NCBI RefSeq assembly: GCF_900217815.1
Contig: NZ_OBMT01000006.1
Span: 124,001 to 188,000 of the forward strand
Direction of reading: 5' to 3'
DNA: 64,000 nt
DNA from: Rhodobacter maris
GTDB lineage: Bacteria; Pseudomonadota; Alphaproteobacteria; Rhodobacterales; Rhodobacteraceae
Positions 47,752-54,557 of this stretch are shown one piece after another. The notes beneath the pieces are model-generated. The model was not told where the DNA came from. It saw only the letters and a program-made list of their open reading frames with translations, and made no database searches. The translations under genes were made by a program, and so were the position numbers. Positions within the stretch are counted from its first letter, which is position 1. Each line of letters opens with the position of its first letter.

Positions 47752-48465
47752 ATGCGGATTTTGTTGGTGGAGGACGACCCGACGACCTCGCGCAGCATCG
47801 AGCTGATGCTGACGCATGCCAACCTCAACGTCTATTGCACAGACCTTGGGGAAGAGGGGATCGACCTTGCTAAACTTTATGATTACGATCTGATCCTGCT
47901 GGATCTTAACCTTCCCGACATGAACGGGCTTGAGGTTTTGCGTCAGCTTCGCCTTGCCCGGGTCGATACACCGATCCTGATTCTCACCGGCGCAGATGAC
48001 ACCGAGAACAAGATCAAGGGCTTTGGTTTCGGCGCCGACGACTACATGACCAAACCCTTCCACCGCGAAGAGCTGGTCGCGCGAATCCATGCGATCATCC
48101 GCCGTTCCAAGGGGCATTCGCAGTCGATCATCCGCACCGGCAAGATTTCGGTGAACCTTGATGCCAAGACGGTCGAGGTGGGCGGCAAGCCCGTGCATCT
48201 GACCGGCAAGGAATATCAGATGCTCGAGCTTCTGAGCCTGCGCAAGGGGACGACGCTGACCAAGGAAATGTTCCTCAACCACCTGTATGGTGGCATGGAC
48301 GAGCCCGAACTGAAAATCATCGACGTGTTCATTTGCAAGCTGCGCAAGAAACTCGCCGAGGTTACGGGCGGCGAGAACTATATCGAAACCGTCTGGGGCC
48401 GGGGCTATGTGTTGCGCGACCCCGATCAGGGCGATCTCGACCGCCGCATGGTCGTGGGCGCCTGA
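47752..48465 (+). CDS. ctrA: Response regulator CtrA
   Basis: OmpR-type master regulator of 237 residues. The receiver domain (1-115) has the acidic pocket VEDDP and the phospho-acceptor Asp51 in [11 protein letters not shown], as in Caulobacter CtrA. The DNA-binding winged helix (about 125-230) includes [35 protein letters not shown] and [11 protein letters not shown]. The C-terminus is Asp/Arg-rich and ends VVGA; the two-Ala proteolysis tag of Caulobacter is not exact here. It is expected to be phosphorylated through ChpT from CckA. In Rhodobacter it is not essential and regulates motility and gene transfer agents. Confidence 0.95.
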
Positions 48466-52748
<4,283 letters not shown>

Positions 52749-52750
52749 AT

Positions 52751-52765
52751 GTTCTCAAAATGTTC
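52751..52765 (+). promoter_or_regulatory. SOS (LexA) box GTTC-N7-GTTC
   Basis: GTTCTCAAAATGTTC lies two bases after the recG stop and fits exactly the alphaproteobacterial LexA operator GTTC-N7-GTTC described in Rhodobacter. TTGACC, a possible -35, starts at 52766, so LexA would block polymerase. The next start codon is at 52819. Confidence 0.75.
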
Positions 52766-52818
52766 TTGACCTGCCGAGAGCAATGTGAGAACAAAGTGGC
52801 AACAGAAAGGAGATGCCG

Positions 52819-52956
52819 ATGCGCCAGCCCCCGACGATCCGCCCTCTTGAGGCCTTCGCAAGCCGCGCCCCCGCCGAGGTGGTGCAAGACACGATCGGCG
52901 CGCTCTCGCTCTGCGTCACCTTTGTTGCAATCCTGTTCCTGCCCGGGTTGTTCTGA
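52819..52956 (+). CDS. SOS-linked small membrane protein (45 aa)
   Basis: I do not recognise this gene. The frame encodes 45 residues. Residues 1-25 are soluble (MRQPPTIRPLEAFASRAPAE and on), and residues about 26-45 form one hydrophobic segment (IGALSLCVTFVAILFLPGLF) that runs to the C-terminus. The ribosome site AAAGGAG lies six bases before the ATG at 52819; an ATG six bases upstream is too close to it. The only promoter-like signals carry a perfect LexA box, so expression is probably damage-inducible. Caulobacter SidA, an SOS-induced 29-residue inner-membrane division inhibitor, is a functional precedent, but no sequence relation is claimed. Confidence 0.65.
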   Translation: MRQPPTIRPLEAFASRAPAEVVQDTIGALSLCVTFVAILFLPGLF

Positions 52957-53146
52957 GTTGCTAGCGCTCCGGTGCCGTGCTGCCGGGCCCGATACGAGTG
53001 CCGCTGTTTCCCGGTCAGGCGAGCCTGGCCAAATGTTCACTGCCTCGCGCTTTTGCCGCTGTCTGTCCCCAGCTGTGCGGCAGCCTGTCCCAAGGCCCAG
53101 TCAAAGCGCACCTCACGCCGCCATCTCCCGATGGCGGCGTTTTTTT
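52957..53146 (+). ncRNA. Possible structured RNA or 3' UTR, terminator-ended
   Basis: This 190-base stretch has no ORF of its own but has much predicted structure. GGTCAGG-CGAG-CCTGGCC (53013-53030) forms a perfect 7-bp stem with a tetraloop, flanked by CCGGG (52983-52987) and CCCGG (53010-53014). A strong Rho-independent terminator ends it. It could be the 3' UTR of the 45-residue gene or an sRNA processed from it. The CTGTTTCCCGGTCAGG string resembles SRP RNA, but its conserved AGCAGCC partner is missing. Confidence 0.3.
53115..53146 (+). terminator. Strong Rho-independent terminator
   Basis: A perfect 10-bp stem (53115-53124 with 53131-53140), six-base loop and a run of seven Ts. It ends the transcript containing the SOS-linked small gene. 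Confidence 0.92.
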
Positions 53147-53147
53147 G

Positions 53148-54557
53148 CTACATCCGGTAAGCGAGGCGCAACCCGCCCCAATGCCGTCCGGCCACGAAGA
53201 TCGGCGCCGAGAGATCTTTCATCAGCACGAAATTGCCGCCGCCCATGTCGCGACGGTAGATCTGCAACAGGAAGGGGGCGGTCGATTGCCCCGCGCGCAG
53301 CCCGACCCGGTCGTTGAAGAGCCGCCGGTTGCGGCAGTTTGCGGCGTTCCAGACCGGATCCGCGCTCTGCGGCTGCGAGAATTTGCGGTTATGCGTCGGC
53401 AGATAACCGTTCCGGTCCACCGCGGCACAGAACACCACATCGGGCGAGAGCTTCAACATGCGCTCCTGCACATCGGGCAGCACCGCATCGGTGAAGGCGG
53501 TGAAGGGTGCGAGGATCTGCGCCGGATCGGTGCCTGCAATCGGCGTGTAGCGGCTGTCGAAAAGCGTCGCGGCAGTGATCTGGCCGGACCGGATCGCCGT
53601 ATCGAAGAGCCCGGCGATCTCGGCCGCGGCCCCCTGTGCGGCGCGGATGAAGCCATCGTCAGCCGTGGCGCCGCCGAGTTCGACGGCCTCCTGCACGATC
53701 GTTTCGCCGGCGAGAATCAGCGCCTGGGTTTTCTCGGTCGCCTGATGCACCTCGGCCGAAGTGCTCGCCATGCCCTCCGACATATGCCGGAACGCCGGGC
53801 CAAAGGAGGCGTTGGCCGCATTCACTTCGGAGGCGCGCGCCGCAATGTCACCCACGGCCTCGCGGGTGAGTTTCAGCCCGTCGAGCATCCGGCCGAGCGC
53901 GCTGTCGGTTCCGGCCGCGCCGCTCAGCACCGCCTCGACATCGGCCGAAATCGCCCCGGCCTCGTCACGCAGAGCGCCCACCGAATCGCTCAAGCCGCCA
54001 ACCGCGTCGCCGATTCCCTCGGCCGCGCCAGCGGTCTTGCGCGACAGTTCGTTGATCGCTTCGGCCACCACAGCAAAGCCACGCCCGGAATCGCCCGCCC
54101 GCGCCGCCTCGATTTTCGCGTTGATCGCCAGGATGTTGACCTGCTTCGCGATGGACTTGATTTCGGCATTCTCGGTTTGCACGCGGGTCAGCGTCGCGTT
54201 GAGCTCTTCCATTCGCGTGATGGCCGCGCGCACCCAGGCAGCGATGGTTTGCGCATGGCTGCCGGTTTCACGCAATTGCGCCACCGTGCCCTCGACGAGA
54301 TCCAGTGTCACCTCGGCCGAGCGGCCGACCCGCTCGGCACCGTCCAGTACGCGGGCATTGGCGTCCTGAACCGTTTCGGCAGAGGATTGCGCCTTGCGCA
54401 GAAGGGACATCTGGGCATCGATATGGCGTTCGAGCGCATCAAGCGCGCCCGCCACTTCGGCGACATCGCGGCCAAGTTCGAGGGCATCCTGGGCAATGCG
54501 GTTGATGCGTGCCTCGGTCTGGGCGGGCTCGGGGGATGGCATCGGGCTCTGGGTCAT
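53148..54557 (-). CDS. Soluble methyl-accepting chemotaxis-like receptor
   Basis: Cytoplasmic chemoreceptor-like protein of 469 residues with no membrane helix. The N-terminal two thirds are coiled coil with the signalling tip VNILAINAKIEAARAGDSGR starting near residue 140; the tip sequence differs from classical receptors (INAKIE for LNAGVE). The C-terminal part (about 300-469) is a sensory region with SPDVVFCAAVDRNGYLPTHN, resembling a single Cache-like or similar ligand domain. Most receptors put the sensor first, so this is the reverse layout. Soluble receptors are common in Rhodobacter, where they cluster in the cytoplasm. The partner CheA is not in the window. Confidence 0.8.
   Translation of the reverse strand: MTQSPMPSPEPAQTEARINRIAQDALELGRDVAEVAGALDALERHIDAQMSLLRKAQSSAETVQDANARVLDGAERVGRSAEVTLDLVEGTVAQLRETGSHAQTIAAWVRAAITRMEELNATLTRVQTENAEIKSIAKQVNILAINAKIEAARAGDSGRGFAVVAEAINELSRKTAGAAEGIGDAVGGLSDSVGALRDEAGAISADVEAVLSGAAGTDSALGRMLDGLKLTREAVGDIAARASEVNAANASFGPAFRHMSEGMASTSAEVHQATEKTQALILAGETIVQEAVELGGATADDGFIRAAQGAAAEIAGLFDTAIRSGQITAATLFDSRYTPIAGTDPAQILAPFTAFTDAVLPDVQERMLKLSPDVVFCAAVDRNGYLPTHNRKFSQPQSADPVWNAANCRNRRLFNDRVGLRAGQSTAPFLLQIYRRDMGGGNFVLMKDLSAPIFVAGRHWGGLRLAYRM

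Follow-up and report, generated by a model that had tools for sequence, protein, structure and literature searches.

Introduction

In Caulobacter, SidA, a protein of only 29 residues, acts on FtsW and blocks late division after DNA damage, and DidA, of 71 residues, is linked to FtsN and independent of the SOS response; both are treated in the sections of PMC4211646 that deal with these inhibitors. For YneA, binding of the transmembrane helix to TM7 of FtsW is described in the relevant part of PMC13396833, where the contacts of SidA, ChiZ and SosA with FtsW are low-confidence models. The same part reports that the YneA transmembrane helix alone reaches FtsW without blocking division. TisB is LexA-controlled and depolarises the membrane (PMC8145889, in part), and DinQ is a toxic, SOS-regulated single transmembrane peptide (PMC3567139, in part). 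As a kind, SOS-induced single-helix membrane peptides are already known. To our knowledge, how division is arrested after DNA damage in most alphaproteobacteria outside Caulobacter is an open question.

The LexA protein of alphaproteobacteria binds GTTC-N7-GTTC. A box of this form lies directly behind recG in Rhodobacter maris, in the window analysed here (the whole stretch of 64,000 nt, contig NZ_OBMT01000006.1, positions 124,001 to 188,000). It precedes a small ORF, for which a preliminary description had proposed an SOS-controlled, single-pass membrane protein comparable to SidA.

Results

Layout of the Locus

The features of the locus are collected in Table 1. The perfect box that the preliminary description had placed at 52751-52765 is present, GTTCTCAAAATGTTC starting two bases past the recG stop codon. 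The ribosome site is also there (AAGGAG, 6 nt before the ATG at 52819), as is the 45-codon ORF with one hydrophobic segment reaching the C-terminus: its last 21 residues bear no charge and are mostly hydrophobic. An alternative in-frame ATG at 52813, which the Shine-Dalgarno sequence abuts, would give 47 residues. The ORF is followed by an untranslated stretch of 190 nt with the terminator at its end. The earlier account of the locus is supported as to the LexA-type promoter and the ORF; it had overlooked the conserved 3' UTR, its CUGUCCC motifs and the gene's own terminator.

The row ahead of the small gene consists of a ctrA-like response regulator (47752-48465), a ligA-like DNA ligase (48538-50658) and recG. 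Cell-cycle and repair genes are adjacent in 47752-52748, their names being taken from reading the translations.

Table 1. Features of the small-gene locus (positions in the window).
Feature	Position	Strand	Remark
recG, directly upstream gene	50655..52748	+	697-aa ORF; name from reading the sequence
LexA-type box GTTC-N7-GTTC, GTTCTCAAAATGTTC	52751..52765	+	touches the -35-like element, just upstream of it
-35-like element TTGACC	52766..52771	+	TTTAC in most relatives; profile positions 15-19 at 77-99% (92 loci)
TGAGAACAAA, conserved, -10 region	52786..52795	+	contains a GAAC half-site; at least 89% per position (92 loci)
GGCAACA	52798..52804	+	67-99% per position (92 loci)
Shine-Dalgarno AAGGAG	52807..52812	+	6 nt ahead of ATG 52819
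Small ORF	52819..52956	+	45 aa; N-terminus amphipathic and followed by a single predicted transmembrane helix up to the C-terminus
Codons of uncharged segment, residues 25-45	52891..52953	+	directly after the invariant Asp, which is residue 24 here and D19 in 40-aa proteins
3' RNA element	53038..53110	+	predicted (fold): long stem around a hairpin, C-rich motifs
Stem halves of 3' element, GCGCUUU / AAAGCGC	53047-53053 / 53103-53109	+	predicted
CUGUCCCC motif inside hairpin	53063..53070	+	CTGTCCC in 70 of 89 3' UTRs; CUG paired and UCCC open in the predicted fold
Second motif, GCCUGUCCC	53083..53091	+	GUCCC in predicted loop; GCCTGTC in 53 of 89 3' UTRs
Intrinsic terminator	53115..53146	+	11-bp stem and T-run

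A Conserved Unit behind recG

The comparison covers 95 distinct loci, a non-random set made of the best-scoring loci of the genus, family, order and class searches, the named loci and 40 picked over the score range. Before counting, a false match (L030), other stretches and a repeat of the window's own locus (L061-L081), borderline loci outside the family (L103-L105) and copies of identical sequence were excluded; L146-L150 are likewise outside the 95. In 93 of these loci, recG ends at most 700 nt upstream on the same strand; it is not adjacent in two, L012 and L013. In L086, a longer copy of the latter locus, recG and the small gene are separated by an ORF of about 710 codons (651-2781), and the small gene keeps its own promoter.

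The small ORF has exactly 40 residues in 73 of the 95 loci and 39 in 11, start codons having been chosen partly by length, ATG and Shine-Dalgarno sequence. A Shine-Dalgarno-like 4-mer precedes it in 89/95, a count favoured by that choice. By sequence comparison, the unit that recurs across the family is recG, a LexA-type promoter, an ORF of about 40 codons, a 3' tail and a terminator.

The LexA-Type Promoter

The box by itself is uninformative, because GTTC-N7-GTTC is expected 1.26 times per window at the window's composition and the whole genome contains 86 exact copies versus 73 of the reversed pattern. Taken alone, it was rejected as evidence for an SOS gene, its frequency being about that of chance. 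At 93 of the 95 loci, a GTTC-N7-GTTC in either orientation lies no more than 200 bp ahead of the ORF, and of 795 control stretches (200 nt each) taken from these loci only 2 contain it; the earlier claim of a LexA-type promoter is borne out by these counts. L124 and L131 (2/95) have no exact box, only the near-box GTTCYCTTTTTATTC. In the -10 regions of L012 and L013 there is a GAAC-N7-GAAC, and no GTTC-N7-GTTC is left in L013. In Dinoroseobacter shibae, predicted LexA sites have been sorted into GTTC and GAAC consensus motifs (PMC6473078, in the part on these sites).

The promoter profile was built from 92 loci anchored on the box (L013, L124 and L131 were left out), so that the GTTC halves stand at 100% by construction. 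Most positions of the TTTAC and ATGAGAACAAA elements have 1.2-2.3 bits, and the spacer between them (profile positions 21-30) has 0.05-0.31 bits per position. The distance from the start of the box to the end of GAGAAC is 42 bp in 80/95 loci: by this spacing, the promoter geometry is rigid. From its spacing, GGCAACA is the presumed transcription start region. A scan for the sigma-70 consensus on both strands of 52600-53300 returned no promoter-like site, and it missed the conserved promoter too. A third GTTC is found six bases further upstream (GTTC-N6-GTTC-N7-GTTC) in 64/95 loci and is missing from the window's copy; perhaps this half-site is a second LexA contact. SOS control of the small gene is strongly supported by the comparison of promoters, and it is highly probable that a translated gene stands under this control.

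The Same Box Elsewhere in the Genome

In this genome, the box also occurs upstream of recA, lexA (two overlapping copies), uvrA and an imuB-like gene. These genes were named by reading the sequence, and the place of lexA agrees with a PF01726 match. The region upstream of recA holds the similar pieces GTTCTCGAAATGTGC and GTGAGAACAA. Further boxes lie on other contigs of the genome. On C31 (L071, 714-756), a GAAC-N7-GAAC and a GTTC-N7-GTTC of opposite orientation, 28 bp apart from start to start, precede an ORF of 211 residues (MWNTAARS...), another SOS-gene candidate. On the small and similar contigs C28 and C53 (L069 and L077), the box is located a few dozen bases before a frame starting with MESTAPAL; this may be a plasmid or prophage gene that was duplicated and is SOS-controlled. 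On C35 (L073, 738-1871), the box GTTCTCTCTATGTTC stands 12 bp ahead of a 368-aa ORF (MSLAPNLPFDLPPSDP...), a further candidate SOS gene whose product, on reading, looked like a radical SAM protein.

The Peptide

For the 25 closest pairs among the 40-codon copies, dN/dS does not exceed 0.24 in 20, is 0.31-0.50 in four and is undefined in one. By this measure the peptide is under purifying selection. A chance ORF is ruled out by the conservation together with the dN/dS values. All 71 distinct proteins of 40 residues have D19 and G22, while R11, A23, L26, L34, L36 and P37 are kept at 85-97%.

In 91 of 93 distinct proteins, the C-terminal 20 residues include no D, E, K or R. The helical moment of residues 2-18 averages 1.26, compared to 0.72 after shuffling, and exceeds that of the protein's own shuffles in 66/71. 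The sequences hence predict that an amphipathic helix lies along the membrane surface and that a single transmembrane helix extends to the C-terminus, the single-pass topology that had been proposed for the window's copy. Nothing extends beyond the membrane in this prediction, and no outer domain exists. D19, G22, A23, L26, L34 and P37 fall on one helical face, by simple arithmetic at 100 degrees per residue. The orientation in the membrane is a guess, because the net charge of the N-terminus scatters around zero.

No match in Pfam (E ≤ 0.1), NCBIfam, PHROGs or PDB was obtained for 26 members. A known family was also sought with four proteins searched singly at E ≤ 1, and was rejected: the lone, weak match was Val_tRNA-synt_C (E 0.18), far below the cut-off. 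A mobile origin was rejected as well, as there is no phage record and the single plasmid record is the 1.58-Mb replicon of Pseudorhodobacter turbinis.

Spread of the Gene

A single-sequence search of 101 genomes identified the protein in 18/18 genomes of the same genus (its own included) at E 4.3e-6 or better. Of 295 family genomes, 252 are matched at E ≤ 0.01 by the profile built from an alignment of 26 sequences. In the order sample, 138 of 149 genomes match at E ≤ 0.1; the matches listed all belong to the same family and are partly the same genomes. In the class sample, 7 of 289 match: four belong to the same family, and the three from other families are borderline (E 0.0076-0.00975). At this sensitivity, the class and order samples therefore confine the gene to this family of Rhodobacterales. 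The preliminary description had expected a spread through Rhodobacterales and had pointed to related species as the place to look for both ORF and box; the ORF is matched in most genomes of the family and the box is kept at 93 of the 95 loci. Lack of conservation, which would have spoken against the proposal, is thereby excluded. Named carriers include Rhodobacter aestuarii and species of Sinirhodobacter and Sedimentimonas. L004 and L020, which we take to be the laboratory organisms R. capsulatus SB1003 and Dinoroseobacter shibae, both appear to carry the gene.

Most genomes without the gene keep LexA, hence the gene is dispensable in some lineages: LexA is present in 15/19 gene-negative genomes (one of them with a weak match) and in 19/19 gene-positive ones. 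Absence of LexA as the cause of absence of the gene was rejected, the trend being only weak. Two genomes of the family, both 97% complete (G046 and G115), have a match neither to the small gene nor to the LexA DNA-binding domain; they are perhaps lineages that lost SOS control.

In the reciprocal direction, the promoter pattern GTTCTTTAC-N10-20-GAGAACAA was run on 24 profile-negative genomes, namely 20 listed of the 43 negatives of the family sample and 4 of the 11 of the order sample. It matched in five, and behind each match there is a diverged ORF, 38-46 codons long, whose product is hydrophobic in its C-terminal half; four of these five ORFs follow recG. The other 19 of the 24 have neither promoter pattern nor protein. 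The search thus works in both directions: the protein leads to the promoter and, in the genomes tried, the promoter leads to the protein.

The 3' Tail

A terminator-like end is reached within 420 nt in 89/95 loci, and the six without a recognised terminator were excluded from the counts of the 3' UTR. CTGTCCC is present in 70 of these 89 3' UTRs (mononucleotide shuffles: mean 4.4, maximum 10), CTGCCT in 77 (mean 9.5, maximum 15) and GCCTGTC in 53 (3.0 by shuffling), all three counts being uncorrected for kinship among the loci. In predicted folds, the mean unpaired probability of CUGUCCC is 0.76 (all 7-mers, 0.43; other C-rich 7-mers, 0.53), and the motif is less paired than background in 68/69 loci. 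The 3' motif is well supported by the comparison of loci.

Folding of 17 loci of the genus gives, in most of them, a stem GCGCUUUY/RAAAGCGC around a hairpin with CUGUCCC in the loop. In L004, L005, L007 and L019, the stem is kept and the loop CUGUCCC is absent. In the window's first motif, UCCC alone is open in the predicted fold, because its CUG pairs with a nearby CAG. The 73 nt of the window's element fold at -26.6 kcal/mol (z = -2.0), and 6 of 200 shuffles are equally stable. Two alignments of genus loci were used, A4 with 15 loci and A5 with 13 (L014 being misaligned in A5). Over 13 sequences, the hairpin pairs in 95.2% of cells. One compensatory change is visible (L016 versus L015), a number reached by 121 of 500 shuffles; the covariation in the hairpin is weak. 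A search of Rfam with 16 loci produced 12 matches below the gathering score, none at the 3' element. These folds make the 3' structure plausible. Within 14 nt of an ATG, GGGACAGG is commoner than the reversed pattern in 18 genomes of the genus, but this search for targets is uninterpretable because GGGACAGG resembles a ribosome site.

Discussion

SulA, an SOS division inhibitor, was matched in none of 37 genomes of the family and none of 24 others, with a positive E. coli control. A LexA-type promoter, a tiny membrane protein, a repair gene as neighbour and no SulA found: this combination points to a division checkpoint. The reading preferred here, with a probability of about one half, is that SOS induction yields a membrane peptide which acts as a checkpoint, much as SidA does, and holds division during repair. 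The unit would be a monocistronic SOS gene. In the undamaged cell, LexA would occupy the GTTC-N7-GTTC beside the -35 region and keep the promoter off; loss of LexA triggered by RecA would release it. The short transcript would then give a peptide of about 40 residues (45 here), which would be inserted in the inner membrane, with the amphipathic N-terminus on one membrane face and the C-terminus at the far end of the single uncharged helix. The conserved face (D19, G22, A23, L26, L34 and P37, in the numbering of the 40-aa form) may bind a partner in the membrane; the likeliest is one of the late divisome proteins FtsW, FtsI and FtsN, and this contact would hold division until the damage is repaired. 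The 3' UTR with its CUGUCCC motifs probably serves this transcript by base pairing or through its stability. Comparison of the loci shows the gene, its promoter, the purifying selection, the predicted topology and the conservation of the 3' motif; LexA occupancy, membrane orientation, partner, checkpoint role and RNA role are what we infer from these features. A bolder version is offered tentatively, a checkpoint module present almost throughout the family: one LexA-controlled transcript could carry both a 40-residue membrane inhibitor of the septal peptidoglycan machinery and a conserved 3' regulatory RNA, whose CUGUCCC seeds would reprogram other messengers after damage.

The same promoter, the same size and the single helix would all fit a peptide of the TisB or DinQ kind, which on SOS induction would accumulate in the inner membrane, lower the membrane potential and slow growth while the divisome is not blocked, and the amphipathic N-terminus also fits. 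We consider this rather unlikely. The transmembrane helix of TisB is charged and amphipathic, unlike the last 20 residues here, which are uncharged in 91/93 proteins; the constancy of D19 and G22 suggests that the partner is a specific one; the leader looks short and the ribosome site would be open; and no antisense RNA gene was recognised in the sigma-70 consensus scan, which also misses the conserved promoter. The peptide might instead modulate some other membrane protein that takes part in the damage response or in the cell cycle, such as a membrane protease or a histidine kinase, and leave septation untouched. Small membrane proteins often regulate larger membrane proteins, and the ctrA-like gene is only three genes upstream, but no result obtained here points to such a partner, and this proposal seems doubtful.

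The tail of the transcript raises the question of which product matters. If the transcript acts mainly as RNA, the 3' UTR would be an SOS-induced small RNA and the peptide a second product of a dual-function RNA. The excess of CTGTCCC (70/89) and CTGCCT (77/89) over shuffled sequences (4.4 and 9.5), uncorrected for kinship, the open state of the motif in nearly all folded loci (68/69) and the terminator agree with this. RNA cannot be the sole product, however, because the peptide itself is under purifying selection and of constant length; with weak covariation, an Rfam search of 16 loci that gave nothing at the element and the uninterpretable target search, a leading role of the RNA is unlikely. 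Chance does produce short ORFs, so one might go further and regard the ORF as untranslated, with conservation coming from promoter or RNA only. The dN/dS of at most 0.24 in 20/25 closest pairs, the exact length of 40 residues in 73/95 loci (the start being picked partly by length, ATG and Shine-Dalgarno sequence) and the same protein pattern at loci found by the promoter alone make this extremely improbable.

No literature naming this gene was found in the sources as far as covered, and an earlier listing in tables of LexA regulons is possible. The portions of PMC6473078 covered do not mention recG, and the text on recG and Rhodobacter in PMC2864571, in the portion covered, concerns other matters. 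Set beside the SOS-induced single-helix peptides already known, this one is without a model in the libraries searched; most of the family carries it, and a conserved 3' tail is part of its transcript. The small gene is a candidate division-arrest factor for the 252 of 295 sampled family genomes that match it, beside a repair gene and under a conserved LexA-type promoter. The 3' tail would be a second testable product on the same transcript.

Comparison with Known Systems

With 3' UTR-derived and dual-function small RNAs of bacteria, the locus shares a conserved 3' end, C-rich motifs that are often unpaired in prediction and an intrinsic terminator; no match to an Rfam family was obtained at its 3' element in the 16 loci searched. 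TisB/IstR-1 and DinQ of E. coli are likewise single-helix, SOS-controlled peptides, with control at the RNA level (PMC8145889 and PMC3567139, each in part). For the present gene, no antisense RNA was recognised by the consensus scan, which misses the conserved promoter as well; its helix is uncharged, and a conserved 3' element is found instead.

DidA, SosA, YneA and ChiZ are small, damage-induced membrane inhibitors of division that act at late septation (PMC4211646 and PMC13396833, in the parts on these proteins), an action that may be shared by the peptide described here. DidA differs in being SOS-independent and 71 residues long. YneA and ChiZ possess a LysM domain, whereas the present peptide has nothing past the membrane. 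An easy transfer from YneA is disfavoured, because the YneA helix alone is not inhibitory, according to the part of PMC13396833 on this helix, and the present peptide has no outer domain.

The closest likeness by description is to SidA. The present peptide differs from it by its 40-45 residues, its amphipathic N-terminus, its place beside recG and its restriction, here, to Rhodobacterales. Like SidA (PMC4211646, in part), it would be a tiny, SOS-controlled inner-membrane protein of an alphaproteobacterium, its membrane location and its SOS control both being predicted.
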